DNA of 64,000 bases from Cellulomonas triticagri (lineage in GTDB: Bacteria; Actinomycetota; Actinomycetes; Actinomycetales; Cellulomonadaceae): contig NZ_RFFI01000005.1 in the NCBI RefSeq assembly GCF_003696205.1, positions 1 through 64,000 on the forward strand, read 5' to 3'. Both the position numbers and the translations under genes were made by a program. Position 1 is the first letter of the stretch, and every line of letters begins with the position of its first letter. Under the pieces are notes generated by a model that saw only the letters and a program-made list of their open reading frames with translations, had not been told where the DNA came from and ran no database searches. Shown one piece after another: positions 57,565 through 63,137 of this stretch.

Positions 57565-58239
57565 TCAGTCCCGGACGAGCGCCAGCGCGAACCCGTCCCA
57601 GCCCTTCGCGCCCACGGTCTGCAGCGCCGTCGCGTCCAGCCGGGGGTGCGTCCCGAGCAGGTGCAGCACCGCCCGCGAGCCCTGCACCCGCTCGTCGGTC
57701 GAGTCCGCGTCGGCGACGCCCCCGGCCCGGACGACGTTGTCCACCACGATCACCGTGCCCGGGTGGGACAGGGCGAGGGCCGCCTCGACGTAAGTGCTGT
57801 TGCTCGGCTTGTCCGCGTCCACGAAGACCAGGTCGAACGGCTCCTCCCCCGCGTCGACCAGGGCCTGGGCCGACCCGGCCGCCGGTCCCTCGACCAGCCG
57901 CACCCGGTCCGCGACCCCGGCGCGGGCGAAGTTCTGCCGGGCGACCTCGGCGTGCCGCGGGTCGATCTCCAGCGTCGTCACGTGCCCGTCCGGCCCCACC
58001 GCGTCCGCGAACCACAGCGTGCTGTATCCCGCGAGCGTGCCGAACTCCAGCACCCGGCGCGCGCCCACCATGCGGCACAGCAGCGCCAGCAGCCGGCCCT
58101 GGTTCGGCGCCACCTCGATCGCGGGCAGGCCCGCGGCTCGCCCCGCCTCGCGCGCGGCGAGCAGGGTCGCGTCCTCCGCGACCAGCTCGGTGACCAGGTA
58201 CTCGTCCACCCTCGTCCAGTCCCGCCGCAGGTCCGCCAT
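57565..58239 (-). CDS. O-methyltransferase, class I SAM-dependent
   Basis: 224-aa methyltransferase of the catechol/caffeoyl-CoA type. SAM-binding motif I LEFGTLAGYSTLWFADAVGPDGHVTTLEIDPRHAEVA, motif FDLVFVDADKPSNSTYVEAAL with metal-binding Asp, and IVVDNVVRAGGVAD. ATG 58239 starts MADLRRDWTRVDEYL; an in-frame GTG at 58245 has better spacing (six bases) from GGAGG. Substrate unknown. Confidence 0.92.
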   Translation of the reverse strand: MADLRRDWTRVDEYLVTELVAEDATLLAAREAGRAAGLPAIEVAPNQGRLLALLCRMVGARRVLEFGTLAGYSTLWFADAVGPDGHVTTLEIDPRHAEVARQNFARAGVADRVRLVEGPAAGSAQALVDAGEEPFDLVFVDADKPSNSTYVEAALALSHPGTVIVVDNVVRAGGVADADSTDERVQGSRAVLHLLGTHPRLDATALQTVGAKGWDGFALALVRD

Positions 58240-58318
58240 GGGCACGATCATCCTCCGGGGCGCTCGCCGCCGCACCTGCCCAGATGCGGCGTCGGCACCC
58301 CCGACGCAGACTGCGACG

Positions 58319-60013
58319 GTGCCCGACTCCGCCCGCCCGTCTGACGGCGTCCCCGCCGTGAGCACCCCGGCCCCCGACGCCCCGCCCGCCTCCGACCTGC
58401 TGCCCGAACCCGTCGCCCGTACCCTGCCCGACGTGCCCGGCGTCGGCCCGGACGGCCGCCCCCGGCCCGACGCGCCGCTCGTCGCGGTCACCGGCGTCAC
58501 CGGGTACGTCGGCGGTCGCCTCGTGCCCGAGCTGCTCGCCGCCGGGTACCGGGTGCGTGCCCTCGCCCGGCGCCCCGAGCGGCTGCGCGGCCGTCCCTGG
58601 TACGACGCCGTCGAGGTCGTCCAGGCCGACGCCTCCGACGCCGAGCAGATCCGTGCGGCCCTCGACGGCGTGGACGTCGCCTACTACCTGATCCACTCCC
58701 TCGGCACCGGCCGCACCTTCGAGCAGCGCGACCGGTCCACCGCCCTGACCTTCGGAGCCGCCGCCCGCAAGGCCGGGGTCGGGCGGGTCGTCTACCTCGG
58801 CGGGCTCGCGCCCGAGGGCGAGGAGCTGTCCCCGCACCTCGCGTCCCGCACCGAGGTCGGGGAGATCCTGCTCGCCTCCGGCGTCCCCACCACCGTGCTG
58901 CGCGCCGCCGTCATCCTCGGGTCCGGGTCCGCGTCGTTCGAGATGATGCGGTACCTCACCGAGCGGCTGCCCGCCATGACCGTGCCCCGCTGGGTGCTCA
59001 ACCGCATCCAGCCGATCGCCGTCCGCGACGTCCTGCGGTACCTCGTCGGGTCCGCGACCATGCCGCCCGAGGTCAACCGGGCGTTCGACATCGGCGGGCC
59101 GGACGTCCTCACCTACCGCGACATGATGCAGGGCTACGCGCGCGCCGCCGGGCTGCCGCAGCGGATCATCGTGCCGGTGCCGGTGCTCACCCCGAAGCTG
59201 TCGAGCCTGTGGGTCGGCCTCGTCACCCCGGTGCCGTCCGGCATCGCCCGGCCGCTCGTGGAGTCCCTGGTGCACGAGGTCGTCTGCACCGAGCACGACA
59301 TCGCCGAGCACGTCCCCGACCCGCCCGGCGGGCTGATCGGCTTCGACCGGGCCGTCCGGCTCGCGCTCGCCCGGATCCGCGAGGCCGACGTCACCACCCG
59401 CTGGTCCTCGGCGGGCGTCCCCGGCGTCCCCAGCGAGCCGCTGCCGTCCGACCCCGACTGGGCGGGCGGGTCCCTTTACGTGGACGAGCGGCAGATCGTC
59501 GTCGACGCCTCCCCCGCCGCGCTCTGGCGGGTGCTGGAGGCCGTCGGCGGCGAGCGCGGGTGGTACTCGTGGTCGCTGGCCTGGCGGGTGCGCGGGCTCG
59601 CCGACCGCGTCGTGGGCGGACCCGGGCTGCGGCGCGGACGCCGCGACCCCCGGCGGCTGGTCGTGGACGACGCCGTGGACTTCTGGCGGGTCGAGGAGGT
59701 CGACCCCGGGCGGCTGCTGCGGCTGCGGGCGGAGATGCGGGTGCCCGGGCTCGCGTGGCTGGAGCTGCGCGTCGAGCCGGACCAGGACGCGGGTGCCGAC
59801 GGGGCTGACGCCGACGCCGTGTGGCGGACGCCGCCGACGACGTTCGCCCAGCGCGCCGTGTTCCACCCGCACGGGCTCGCCGGGCAGCTGTACTGGTGGG
59901 CGGTGTACCCGTTCCACGGGGTCGTGTTCGGGGGCATGCAGCGCAACATCGCCCGCGCGGCGGAGACGGCGGAGCGCGCCCGCCGCGACGTGGAGGCCCG
60001 CCGGGAGGCCTGA
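58319..60013 (+). CDS. SDR-type NAD(P)-binding protein with C-terminal DUF2867
   Basis: 564-aa two-domain protein. Residues about 55-370 are an extended SDR/NmrA-type domain: VAVTGVTGYVGGRLVPELLAAGYRVRALARRPERL with glycine motif GVTGYVGG, and YYLIHSLGTG. Residues about 390-560 form a DUF2867-type SRPBCC domain (WRVLEAVGGERGWYSWSLAWRVRGLADRVVGGPGLRRGRRDP; QRAVFHPHGLAGQLYWWAVYPFHGVVFGGM). This fusion is common in actinobacteria; the reaction is unknown. The start is uncertain, with GTG codons at 58319 and about 40 bases later. Confidence 0.85.
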   Translation: MPDSARPSDGVPAVSTPAPDAPPASDLLPEPVARTLPDVPGVGPDGRPRPDAPLVAVTGVTGYVGGRLVPELLAAGYRVRALARRPERLRGRPWYDAVEVVQADASDAEQIRAALDGVDVAYYLIHSLGTGRTFEQRDRSTALTFGAAARKAGVGRVVYLGGLAPEGEELSPHLASRTEVGEILLASGVPTTVLRAAVILGSGSASFEMMRYLTERLPAMTVPRWVLNRIQPIAVRDVLRYLVGSATMPPEVNRAFDIGGPDVLTYRDMMQGYARAAGLPQRIIVPVPVLTPKLSSLWVGLVTPVPSGIARPLVESLVHEVVCTEHDIAEHVPDPPGGLIGFDRAVRLALARIREADVTTRWSSAGVPGVPSEPLPSDPDWAGGSLYVDERQIVVDASPAALWRVLEAVGGERGWYSWSLAWRVRGLADRVVGGPGLRRGRRDPRRLVVDDAVDFWRVEEVDPGRLLRLRAEMRVPGLAWLELRVEPDQDAGADGADADAVWRTPPTTFAQRAVFHPHGLAGQLYWWAVYPFHGVVFGGMQRNIARAAETAERARRDVEARREA

Positions 60014-60048
60014 CCCCCGGCCGGGCGTGCTCGCCAGCGGCCGGAGGT

Positions 60049-60117
60049 CGAGGTCGGGGGAACGTGACGAGGTCGGGGGAACGGATCTCCCGACCTCGTC
60101 ACGTTCTCCCGACCTCG
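60049..60117. repeat. 69-bp palindromic repeat, copy 1
   Basis: 31-bp arms (60049-60079 and 60087-60117) are inverted around the loop AACGGAT, with two mismatches. Each arm is itself a near-tandem of the unit CGAGGTCGGGGGAACG. It follows the SDR fusion gene by 35 bases and probably also terminates transcription. A second copy is at 61870-61938. Confidence 0.85.
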
Positions 60118-60215
60118 CACCCGGAACGGCGCCCGCACGACCGCCCCGGCGAGGACGATGGACGGGCGGGCGCGCCCGCGCCCAACACTTCGCCGACCTC
60201 ACGACTTGACGGGGC

Positions 60216-60725
60216 ATGAGACCGCAGGGGCCCGACATACCACCACCCGAGTTCGCCGCCTGGTACGCGGCCGAGCTGCCGCGCACCCACCGGGCGCTGA
60301 CGCTGGCCGTCGGCGACGCCGGGATCGCCGAGGAGGCGGCCGCCGAGGCGTTCGCCCGGGCGCTGGCCCGCTGGGACCGCGTCGCCCGCATGGAGCGCCC
60401 CGCGGCCTGGGTGTACACCGTGGCGCTGAACGAGGTGCGGCGGTCCTGGCGACGCGCCCAGCTGGAGCGTCGCTGGGTGCAGCGGCAGCGCGAGCAGCAG
60501 GCGCCCGCACCGGCCGACCCCGAGGACGCGCTCTGGCGCGCCGTCGCGGACCTGCCGCCGCGGTCCCGCACCGCCGTGGCGCTCCGCTACGTCGCCGACC
60601 TCACCGAGGCGCAGGTCGCGGACGTCATGAACGTCTCCCGCGGCACGGTCGCCTCCACCCTGTCCACCGCCCGCGCCCGGCTCGCCGCCGCGCTGGGTCC
60701 CACCCGTGAGGACGCCCTGAGATGA
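60216..60725 (+). CDS. ECF-type RNA polymerase sigma factor
   Basis: 169-aa small sigma-70 factor. Region 2 covers HRALTLAVGDAGIAEEAAAEAFARALARWDRVARMERPAAWVYTVALNEVRRSWRR, and region 4 WRAVADLPPRSRTAVALRYVADLTEAQVADVMNVSRGTVASTLSTARARLA. ATG 60216 follows a GACGGGGC sequence. Its last codon overlaps the start of the membrane-anchored gene (ATGA), the usual place of an anti-sigma factor, so that protein probably controls it. Confidence 0.9.
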   Translation: MRPQGPDIPPPEFAAWYAAELPRTHRALTLAVGDAGIAEEAAAEAFARALARWDRVARMERPAAWVYTVALNEVRRSWRRAQLERRWVQRQREQQAPAPADPEDALWRAVADLPPRSRTAVALRYVADLTEAQVADVMNVSRGTVASTLSTARARLAAALGPTREDALR

Positions 60726-61831
60726 GCACCGACTTCCTGACCCGCCTCGCCGACGTCGACACCCCGGCTCCCACCCCCGACCTGGCTCGCGTGCAGCGGC
60801 GCGCCCGTGCGCTCCGCCGGAACCGCCGTGCCCGCACCGTGGGCGCGTCCGTCGGCCTGGCGGCCGTGCTGACCGTCGGCGGTGTCGTCCTGCCACAGGT
60901 CGGCGGCGGCGCCCCGACGCCGCAGGCCGGCGCGTTCCCGCTGTCCCTCGGCGTCGCACCCGCGGTCGCCGGGGAGGGGACGACCGAGTGCCAGACGGGG
61001 TGGAGCGAGTGGGTCGCCCCCGACGCGTGGCCCGCCGACCCACGGATCACCGGCGCCGCCGCCGTGCTCGCCGACGCGCCCTGGGCGGCGACCAGCGCCG
61101 GTGTGCACCTGACCCGGATGGACTGCACCAGCGCCCTGCCCGTCGCGGTGCTCGTGTCCGAGGAGCCCGTCCGCGGCGTGACGGTGTGGCGGGACGTCGC
61201 GGACCCGTTCCCGGAGGGGACCGACGGCGTGGCCGACGTACCGGTGCGCGGCGCCGCCGGGCGGCTGCGCGACCTCGGCACCAGCGCATACGTCTCCTGG
61301 TCCGAGGACGGCGCCCGGTGGATGGCCAGCGGGAGCGGCCTCGGCACCACCGACCTGCTGGACGTGCTCGACGCGCTGCGGTTCGACGGCGACGCCCTCG
61401 ACCCCGGGTCCGTGCCGTCTGGCCTCGATGCCGCCGCGACCGGCGCCACCCGCACGGAGCGCGAGACGCTGCGGTGGACGGTGACCTACGGTGACACCGC
61501 GCCGGTCGAGGGGGCGGACGGCGTCCACCGGACCCCGGAGGGCACCGGGGTCACGCTGGAGGCCATGGCCGGCCCGCAGGAGCCGCCGGAGGTCGTCGCC
61601 AGCTACGACGCCGCGGGGGTCCGGCTCGTGGACGTCGCCGGTCACCGGGCGTCGTTCGCGCCGTGGGGCGACCAGTCCACCGACGTCGGGGGCTGGCTGC
61701 GGTGGCAGGCGGAAGGTGTCACCTACGTGCTGTCGGGCGGCCTGCCGGTCGAGGACCTGGCCGCGCTGGCCGCGACGGTCACGCCCGCCGCGGTCGACGA
61801 CCCGAGCCTGACGGGCCTGCCGCAGTACTGA
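60722..61831 (+). CDS. Membrane-anchored probable anti-sigma/sensor protein
   Basis: 369-aa protein with a short cytoplasmic head (residues 1-40, with an Arg-rich RRARALRRNRRAR), one membrane helix (about 41-60), and a large outer domain with Cys residues in GTTECQTGWSEW and RMDCTSALP. The coupled start (ATGA) and single-pass topology fit an anti-sigma factor, although no zinc-binding ZAS motif (HxxxCxxC) is visible in the head. No family recognised. Confidence 0.7.
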   Translation: MSTDFLTRLADVDTPAPTPDLARVQRRARALRRNRRARTVGASVGLAAVLTVGGVVLPQVGGGAPTPQAGAFPLSLGVAPAVAGEGTTECQTGWSEWVAPDAWPADPRITGAAAVLADAPWAATSAGVHLTRMDCTSALPVAVLVSEEPVRGVTVWRDVADPFPEGTDGVADVPVRGAAGRLRDLGTSAYVSWSEDGARWMASGSGLGTTDLLDVLDALRFDGDALDPGSVPSGLDAAATGATRTERETLRWTVTYGDTAPVEGADGVHRTPEGTGVTLEAMAGPQEPPEVVASYDAAGVRLVDVAGHRASFAPWGDQSTDVGGWLRWQAEGVTYVLSGGLPVEDLAALAATVTPAAVDDPSLTGLPQY

Positions 61832-61869
61832 GCAGTACTGACGGAGCGCGCGGGGGGCACCGCGTCCGG

Positions 61870-61938
61870 CGAGGTCGGCGGAACGGGACGAGGTCGGGGG
61901 AACGGATCCCCCGACCTCGTCGCGTTCTCCCGACCTCG
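61870..61938. repeat. 69-bp palindromic repeat, copy 2
   Basis: 31-bp arms (61870-61900 and 61908-61938), the same loop AACGGAT, and the same internal unit CGAGGTCGGGGGAACG as copy 1, with a few point differences (for example a GGCGG in the left arm). It lies between the convergent anti-sigma and thioesterase genes and can act as a bidirectional terminator. Confidence 0.85.
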
Positions 61939-61952
61939 TGGCCGACGCAGGA

Positions 61953-62462
61953 TCAGCGGGCGCGGCGGCGGAACGCCGGGGGCTCCTCGACGTAGGGCAG
62001 CCACGCGGCCCGCTCCGCCTCGCCGATCCGGCGCGGCGAGCCGCTGGCCGCGTCGACCAGCACGAGCGTCGTCACGGCCCGGGCGTACGGGTCGCCCGCT
62101 GCCGGGGTGGCGTCGCGCACCTCGTAGCAGACGTCGATGCTGGCCCCGCCGAGGTGGCCGATCCACATGTCCACGACCACGGGCGTGCGGCGGTACCCCA
62201 GCGGACGCAGGTACTCGATCTCCTGCCGGGCGACCAGCGTCGCCGTCTGCGCACCGGGGCCCGCGTCGAGCACGGCCGTGGGGAACGCGGGCCGGTCCGC
62301 CGGGACCTCCCCGGGGCCGAGCGGGTCGGCGGCGGCGGGGTGCGCCCAGAACGCCTCGATCCGCGACTCCTCCAGCAGCCGCAGCATCTCGACGTTGTTC
62401 ACGTGCCCGTACGCGTCCATGTCGGACCACCGCAGCTGGACCGGCACCTGCAGCCTGGCCAT
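61953..62462 (-). CDS. 4HBT-type acyl-CoA thioesterase
   Basis: 169-aa hot-dog fold thioesterase. VQLRWSDMDAYGHVNNVEMLRLLEESRIEAFW is the 4-hydroxybenzoyl-CoA thioesterase motif with Asp/His residues; EIEYLRPLGYRRTPVVVDMWIGHLGGASIDVCYEVRD and AVTTLVLVDAASGSPRRI follow. GGGAGG precedes ATG 62462. Substrate unknown. Confidence 0.92.
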   Translation of the reverse strand: MARLQVPVQLRWSDMDAYGHVNNVEMLRLLEESRIEAFWAHPAAADPLGPGEVPADRPAFPTAVLDAGPGAQTATLVARQEIEYLRPLGYRRTPVVVDMWIGHLGGASIDVCYEVRDATPAAGDPYARAVTTLVLVDAASGSPRRIGEAERAAWLPYVEEPPAFRRRAR

Positions 62463-63137
62463 GCACGCCTCCCTCTCGTGAGGCCCCGACCTCCCGGGAC
62501 CCCGAGCCATCCTCCCCCTTTCCACCGGAGTACCTCGTCACTGGGTGCCCGTCCACCACCGCGCGGGTCGTCCCGACGCCTCCTGTCCACGCGCCGTGTC
62601 GAGGCGGAGCCGGGTGGGGCACGAGGAGCGTGCGCGCTCCGAGGAAGACCACGAGGGTGCCCTTGCCCCGAGCAGGCATTCCCACCACTCGTCGCGGGAG
62701 GTTTGGCCACTTGCCTGACAGCCTGAAGTGGCGTCGCCACCTGGGGTCCTGGCGGATCGACGGCACCCCGCTGACCTCGTGCCGCAACCCCAAGACCCCA
62801 GCACCCTCGTCGGCACCTCCCAGCGGACCCGCAGGTCAGAGACTCCGCACGGGCGGGAGCGTCGGTCGCCGGTGACGTCCGCCTACGCCGACGCTCATCC
62901 ACCACCTCCGACGTACCGCGGGAGAGCAGCGGCCGCGTGGGAGCGATTGCGCCCTGCCACGGGAGGTTGTTGGTTGCCTCCGGCATCACTAGCGTCCAGC
63001 GGGTCATCACCCGTGGTGGTCCATTCCCCGCGAGAGCGAGCACGATTCGACGGGTCGCACGCCCGTGAGCTCGGCTGCTGGATGCGGGGCGGGCGCTCGC
63101 CGCCTCTCGCACCAGGGCCGCGGCAATCAGGAAGGTC
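62463..63137. other. 675-bp region without a recognised gene
   Basis: No reading frame here matches a family I know. Base composition is more even than in the flanking genes. Two short similar elements are seen: GGGAGGTT with TTGCCT seven bases on (62696-62716), and GGGAGGTT with TTGCCT five bases on (62961-62979). A GTGGCG-T-CGCCAC palindrome lies at 62728-62740. It may hold a decayed gene plus the promoter of the SdpI-like gene. Confidence 0.45.

Follow-up and report, generated by a model that had tools for sequence, protein, structure and literature searches.

Two near-identical palindromes that bracket a sigma factor operon of Cellulomonas triticagri belong to a family of dispersed non-coding palindromes, whose cognate enzyme is probably (we put this at roughly 0.6) a low-copy nuclease that joins an AbiEi-like part to a part resembling Vsr and the homing endonuclease I-Bth0305I. 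The two would form a system that is similar to REPtrons and built on an unrelated nuclease. The elements have a four-box layout, occur in many copies and are spelled in genome-specific box letters (hereafter dialects). They bracket nuclease genes with a single dialect, which matches the kinship of the nucleases, and are present in some and absent from other related species. In Cellulomonas and some relatives, the genes of an enzyme that likely cuts DNA are often bracketed by such repeats, each gene by its own spelling; this suggests a type of small selfish DNA that has not been reported so far. The linked nuclease family could not be seen by the first-pass annotation, which was made from sequence only.

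The palindromes were found in the window, i.e., the whole stretch of DNA that was analysed (the first 64,000 nucleotides of contig NZ_RFFI01000005.1). They lie, as had been annotated, at 60049-60117 and 61870-61938 and are 94% identical over 69 bp. The annotation had divided each into 31-bp arms and a 7-nt loop; the long arms are indeed present, but we measured 32-nt arms (94% and 91% complementary) around a centre of 5 nt, as the earlier division had counted one inner pair as loop. Folded as RNA together with their flanks, the two elements reached -79.5 and -71.8 kcal/mol, corresponding to z values of -11.0 and -7.1 against dinucleotide shuffles. A four-box pattern search located the forward boxes of the first copy, which read CGAGGTCG, at 60049-60056 and 60068-60075 on the plus strand, and the inverted ones at 60091-60098 and 60110-60117 on the minus strand. 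The corresponding boxes of the second copy are at 61870-61877 and 61889-61896 (plus) and at 61912-61919 and 61931-61938 (minus), and all 32 box bases are exact in both copies. The 15-nt internal unit gave six window matches at 0-1 mismatches, every one within the two elements; at up to three mismatches, it gave 10 window matches against 9.2 by chance. Thus, it is the arrangement, not the unit, that is distinctive. Consistent with the claim that the elements are absent elsewhere in the window, the layout detector found no further CGAGGTCG-type element there.

Each element contains an 11-mer four times, twice in forward and twice in inverted orientation, at intervals of 8 bp (9 bp in the middle of the window form). 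The element starts with CGAG, and the first eight letters of the 11-mer, CGAGGTCG, are nearly invariant. In the DNA examined, we collected 151 distinct four-box elements, a set that allows up to three box mismatches and likely includes a few chance matches; the spacers were 11-14-11 in 117 of them and 11-15-11 in 20. Because the boxes of an element also agree in the three letters that follow each 8-mer, the structure is most regularly read as four 11-mers with 8 bp between them, i.e., a 19-bp step. Among 17 elements of other genera, these three letters agreed at 0.92 between boxes 1 and 2 and at 0.98 between boxes 1 and 4, and at about 0.35 between different elements. As pairing does not require boxes 1 and 2 to agree, the boxes are constrained as letters. 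In one element, at a junction of G058 (L340; G, C, and L numbers are our handles for genomes, contigs, and loci) that is orthologous to C. triticagri L010, the boxes read by eye as A-B-A'-B' and not A-A-A'-A', so that pairing would be between boxes 1 and 3 and between boxes 2 and 4.

Three dialects were distinguished in C. triticagri. In dialect A, the window form, CGAGGTCG is followed by mostly G-rich letters, and in dialect B, the sister form, the 8-mer is followed mostly by TCA. Dialect C, CGAGGTCGAGG, has one degenerate inner box and only the 8-letter core in common with dialect A; it was found at seven places in 416 kb of sampled DNA, two of which adjoin a nuclease gene. The same layout with other box letters is present in G028, G009, and G015.

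A search of the C. triticagri genome with a pattern of four boxes of eight letters (CGAGGTCG in two forward and two inverted copies, spacers 11, 15, and 11) detected 20 copies of the window form with up to three mismatches, 15 of which had all 32 box letters exact, while a control with the reversed pattern gave no matches. The sister form was found in at least 10 copies, mostly of 68 bp, with a centre of 14 nt in nine and 12 nt in one (up to three box mismatches). Thus, the possibility that the element is confined to the two window sites fails. Among congeneric genomes, a three-box CGAGGTCG pattern was present in 18 of 81 Cellulomonas, with at most 35 matches on a strand, and was absent from the remaining 63. 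The 49-bp core length was seen, among the matches listed, in Sanguibacter, Actinotalea, Promicromonospora, Flavimobilis, Pseudactinotalea, and Arthrobacter pascens; those from distant groups mostly differ in length and are probably due to chance. Across Cellulomonas and related genera, the layout is found again, also with other box letters. On four contigs of G001 (C89, C158, C223, and C328), elements lie 26-63 bp from the contig start; assemblies may therefore be interrupted by the elements, and draft genomes may understate their number. No Rfam family reached its gathering score; the top matches were miRNA models far below cut-off, such as any long hairpin may give.

The link to an enzyme emerged from the genes enclosed by elements. 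Six pairs of elements in the DNA examined enclose genes, and four of them enclose homologous nuclease genes, in C. hominis (L260), Isoptericola (L235), Sanguibacter (L196), and G095 (L241). The remaining two pairs enclose the window operon and a Promicromonospora gene that, by eye, looks like a GNAT acetyltransferase. When 81 genomes were searched with a profile, nuclease homologs at E <=1e-10 were identified in 74. C. triticagri has three, all with palindromes on both sides: one (C204:33195-34118) is flanked by CGAGGTCGAGG, and the other two (on C209 and C215) are bracketed by hairpins of a different build, CGAGCGGTCAGCAG... and GGTGCACGAGACACGTC... (L408 1144-1201 and 2263-2328; L407 1414-1494 and 2478-2546). 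A further copy of the GGTGCACGAGACACGTC hairpin is present at L069 9556-9616. Members in G017, G095, and G088 are flanked by CGAGGTCGTCA or TCC. Several members of the type that goes with CGAGGTCG elements (L260 and L241, with fragments elsewhere) adjoin one and the same gene, which we take to be nagB-like.

We read 56 nuclease loci, including two repeats (L051 = L359 and L241 = L361), with a letter-free layout detector that gave 25 matches against 2 in shuffled sequence per 352 kb. An element was present within 500 bp on at least one side in 48 of the 56 loci and on both sides in 31; at 88 control loci of three other genes, the corresponding counts were 9 and 0. The same was seen for the 49 loci that had not been found via elements, where 41 nuclease genes had an element within 500 bp and 25 had one on both sides, as compared to 64 and 3 of 481 other genes called by our own script in the sampled stretches. 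These 49 comprised 28 chosen by search (23 with an element, 17 on both sides), 20 picked by place from the match list (17 and 8), and one from a sampled stretch. For bracketing on both sides, the Fisher p was 4e-26, a nominal value because related species do not contribute independent nuclease loci. Eight of the 49 loci had no element by this detector, two of which have palindromes on both sides by another one.

The dialects on the two sides of a nuclease gene proved to be alike. At 29 two-sided loci, four of them found through elements, on average 9.97 of 11 letters were the same, against 6.92 when sides were shuffled among loci (0 of 5000 shuffles), and at 25 loci at least 10 letters were common to both consensus 11-mers. 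Furthermore, across 46 loci, the dialect follows nuclease kinship, with a Mantel r of 0.47 for the AbiEi-like N part and 0.40 for the nuclease C part (0 of 2000 permutations each), and mean dialect identity climbs from 0.50 to 0.91 with protein identity. A first comparison of flanks by local alignment was uninformative because the scoring was saturated in both groups. On the genome level, CGAGGTCG elements were found in 10 of the 12 genomes whose best homolog scored above 370 bits versus 8 of the 69 others; an exception is G001, with 17 CGAGGTCG matches and only distant homologs in its draft (best E 4.9e-21). A weak test of dispersed dialects against a genome's own nucleases gave 8.17 for the best of 24 assignments and 8.06 for the next. 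Among the loci read, no nuclease gene flanked by dialect A was found (the C. triticagri assembly has 280 contigs), and thus the window copies are linked to the enzyme by the shared core letters and the layout. These data establish the association of elements with the nuclease family and the match of dialects. No published account tying an AbiEi/DUF559/Vsr-like nuclease to palindromic repeats was found in our searches of the open-access literature.

The domain composition of the nuclease was assessed by profiles and by a structural model. The N part is AbiEi-like: PADLOC AbiEi profiles matched all four members scanned (best E 1e-7 to 1e-13), and among 10 members AbiEi_4 was above its cut-off in L086 and below it or unmatched in the other nine. 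The C part weakly matched the MTES_1575 REase profile, below cut-off in nine of the 10 members, and was unmatched in the tenth. An AlphaFold2 model computed from five members (mean pLDDT 73, pTM 0.72) was compared with known structures by Foldseek, which gave no E under 0.001 (0.16 for I-Bth0305I). The following Z values are VIA-align realignments of these Foldseek matches and not an independent search. Residues 190-298 of the model aligned to I-Bth0305I with Z 11.5 (rmsd 2.5 over 95 residues), residues 188-298 to Vsr with Z 10.0, and residues 51-184 to an AbiEi antitoxin with Z 7.8, which is at or under the level where chance arrangements are common. Thus, the family is likely to consist of an AbiEi-like DNA-binding part fused to a part similar to Vsr and homing endonucleases, and the predicted enzyme is likely to cut DNA.

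Next, we compared element sites between genomes. Most elements are located in intergenic gaps. Several sites are common to more than one species. At the four shared by dialect A of C. triticagri and G015, the spacer identity was 0.28, 0.31, 0.53, and 0.70 (the last over 10 letters only), against means of 0.38 for all dialect A-G015 pairs and 0.61 within dialect A. As the lower values are near the mean of all pairs, two of these four sites keep no letter trace of common descent. At one of them, the L009 site, which carries dialect A in C. triticagri, G015 and G073 have a common TCA-type element; their spacers are 0.94 identical to each other, while each is 0.31 and 0.38 identical, respectively, to that of C. 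triticagri. Judging from the four sites, rewriting is not general. In a region where G009 and G028 have flanks 86-99% alike, seven element sites are common and four are specific (one to G009, within a larger block that differs from G028, and three to G028), a count that leaves out detector matches with non-CGAG boxes (G009 offsets 44894, 90991, and 96731) and palindromes of other build. Among the genomes compared, no site was cleanly empty with exact borders; closest to one is G028 offset 188384, where G009 retains 16 bp ending in one box.

From these observations, we infer binding, cutting, repair, and spread by the nuclease as follows. The AbiEi-like half would bind the 11-bp boxes of double-stranded DNA; we take it to do so because AbiEi proteins bind tandem inverted repeats, as described in an excerpt of PMC7319586. 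The nuclease half would then cut at or near an element or at sites resembling one, and repair from another copy would spread and rewrite the elements. Such spreading by cut and repair would account for their dispersal, for the joint change of box letters, and for the missing target duplications. The elements would survive best downstream of genes, above all in convergent gaps. In its full form, this amounts to a new class of selfish DNA, in which a Vsr-type homing endonuclease with an AbiEi half spreads and rewrites four-box palindromes by cut-and-repair gene conversion, giving rise to lineage-specific dialects: a nuclease-driven, double-stranded counterpart of REPtrons that would be common in Cellulomonas and occur in other Micrococcales. 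We propose this fuller version tentatively, at slightly less than even odds.

The elements could instead be bidirectional terminators or protectors of mRNA 3' ends that lack a U tract and are both spread and homogenised by ordinary recombination, and the nuclease genes would carry them merely as terminators. We consider this unlikely, although the hairpins are strong, the distance from stop codon to element is often 10-60 bp, and convergent gaps are the richest in elements (20 of 106, as compared to 17 of 185 co-directional and 4 of 94 divergent gaps). Compensatory changes in the stem also speak for it, with 157 cells across genera against 59.5 in shuffles and a moderate 38 against 24.4 within dialect A of C. 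triticagri. However, all four boxes change together across genera, and much of the covariation between genera therefore need not reflect pairing. In G015 and G017 (C. pakistanensis and C. hominis), the stem outside the boxes had 51 such cells against 51.3 shuffled, and four of five measures were not beyond shuffling; in the fifth, pairs changed on both sides numbered 14 against 10.9, above all shuffles. The absence of stem covariation in these two species would argue against recognition of one long hairpin, and the pure RNA-hairpin reading was rejected on this uneven record. Moreover, no terminator-like site with a T run was found in 59900-62600, and pairing does not call for the agreement of boxes 1 and 2. 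Facing genes also do without an element: at site 1, read in 20 genomes, G000 and G015 carry a CGAGGTCG element, whereas seven relatives (G059, G028, G009, G087, G088, G001, and G091) have none, with only about 5-15 bp between their facing stop codons; some other genomes have a longer gap or other palindromes, and the gap of G095 consists of unread bases. Finally, termination leaves unexplained that a single gene family has elements of a gene-specific dialect on both flanks.

Even less probable, in our view, is that the elements are operators of the AbiEi-like domain, by which the nuclease regulates itself through the flanking copies, and that the copies elsewhere in the genome serve as a regulon or as decoys and take no part in copying. 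An excerpt of PMC7319586 describes AbiEi antitoxins as binding inverted repeats in promoters, with Rv2827c binding four repeats. This fits the AbiEi-like N part of the nuclease and the elements 5' of 39 of the 56 nuclease loci, but elements on the 3' side are as frequent (40 of 56), and dispersed copies lie mainly at 3' ends and are rare in divergent gaps. Operators alone would also not explain rewriting or elements that occur in one of two close species. The first-pass annotation had suggested that the flanking copies could mobilise or insulate the operon. They do lie on both sides of the ECF sigma factor gene (60216-60725, plus strand; Sigma70_r4_2, E 8.8e-14) and of the gene downstream of it (60722-61831, plus strand), which has no Pfam match at 1e-3 and looks anti-sigma-like by eye; we judged both to be bystanders. 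The outer genes are an SDR-like one upstream (57794-60013, plus strand, start uncertain) and a thioesterase-like one convergent to it (61953-62525, minus strand), both named by eye. In 25 of 29 relatives' loci, they are adjacent with no room for the operon, the distance being 14-243 bp at 21 loci and 539-919 bp at four; in the remaining four of the 29, the upstream gene was outside the DNA examined. The sigma/anti-sigma-like operon is thus not at the junction in any of the 25 loci in which both outer genes were seen. In G028, G009, and G059, the junction gap without the operon already carries elements of other dialects. Therefore, the operon arrived in, or was kept by, the C. triticagri lineage at an old element site. 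Its absence from the junction in relatives, and the two near-identical copies around it in C. triticagri, might point to a mobile cassette or an insulated unit. Against this, a C. triticagri copy elsewhere in the genome (L003, 93%) is nearly as close as the window pair, and target duplications are not in excess. Anti-sigma-like homologs with 55% identity are located elsewhere in G017 and G001, with no CGAGGTCG element beside the operon homologs within the flanks examined, and in the genomes examined the operon and its bracket were not seen at another place. The suggestion thus found no support, and we regard a mobile cassette or an insulated unit as highly improbable. That elements bracket the sigma operon is probably incidental: the operon would have come to lie between two copies by chance or by insertion beside an old element site, and the elements would not be its vehicle.

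How the nuclease-linked elements relate to known systems depends largely on the enzyme. The window copies had been viewed as a REP- or MITE-type element rather than an ordinary terminator. Their dispersed, REP-like nature was borne out by the many copies in C. triticagri and its relatives, but no REP-associated transposase was detected, and target duplications such as MITEs would leave were no commoner than chance. PF01797 (Y1_Tnp, HUH) was missing from all 10 genomes searched (C. triticagri and nine congeners), with five of 14 control genomes positive, and direct flank repeats around 70 elements numbered 8 against 9.2 expected for at least three letters and 2 against 2.7 for at least four. 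The best-studied account of palindrome dispersal in bacteria rests on HUH transposases, and for some REP classes we know of no enzyme. Going by an excerpt of PMC8266576, the present system resembles REPtrons (REP/REPIN repeats with RAYT/TnpA-REP) in its many short extragenic palindromes, its low-copy enzyme gene next to cognate repeats, the coevolution of repeats and enzyme, and the lack of any sign that the gene of the enzyme moves. Unlike in REPtrons, the elements occur without a Y1 enzyme in the 10 genomes, have four boxes at 19-bp steps, and go with an AbiEi- and Vsr-like enzyme. They also lack the GTAG tag of REPs, and their six flanking bases on each side are G+C-rich, with the strongest single letter at 47 of 70. 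The enzyme gene bracketed by cognate repeats is here that of the AbiEi/Vsr-like nuclease and not a RAYT, and we do not file the system as a REPtron because the search for the HUH enzyme that defines REPtrons gave no match.

I-Bth0305I is a Vsr-like homing endonuclease of the EDxHD family, and the predicted nuclease resembles it in the fold of the catalytic domain; it differs in its other DNA-binding half, in having its gene between dispersed palindromes, and in that no invaded target gene was seen. The N part matches the AbiEi antitoxins of type IV toxin-antitoxin systems by profile and, less firmly, by fold (Z 7.8). In an excerpt of PMC7319586, these antitoxins bind tandem inverted repeats; they differ from the present enzyme, which would be a nuclease fusion with matching repeats that flank its gene on either side and are scattered over the genome. 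CGTC-tagged palindromic repeats are, according to an excerpt of PMC3733652, likewise dispersed without RAYT, and differ in layout and letters. With intrinsic terminators, the elements share the GC hairpin and the position downstream of genes, but not the U run. Integron attC sites have R boxes with the consensus RYYYAAC/GTTRRRY and were ruled out by the box letters (CGAGGTCG). If our reading of the nuclease is correct, a second, unrelated enzyme family is tied to palindromes by gene-specific dialects, and pairs of enzyme and repeat arose more than once. AbiEi-type binding domains would then gain a role outside toxin-antitoxin systems, and the many naturally varied pairs of enzyme and site could be used to study how DNA recognition evolves.

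Some further repeats were noted in the same genomes. A separate hairpin family, CGCCGAGATGGCAACTCTCGGCTG...CAGCCGAGAGTTGCCATCTCGGCG, is present in G009 and G028 at orthologous sites (L108 4811-4876 and 12230-12295; L080 828-913 and 8393-8468). On C. triticagri contig C248 (L056 14233-14565), the detector gave matches spaced at 78 bp that have GGTCGACC-type letters and are suggestive of a tandem repeat. Last, at L292 (G015) and L266 (G017), an element lies 3' of a tRNA-like sequence that, as read by eye, has its own terminator-like hairpin and T run.
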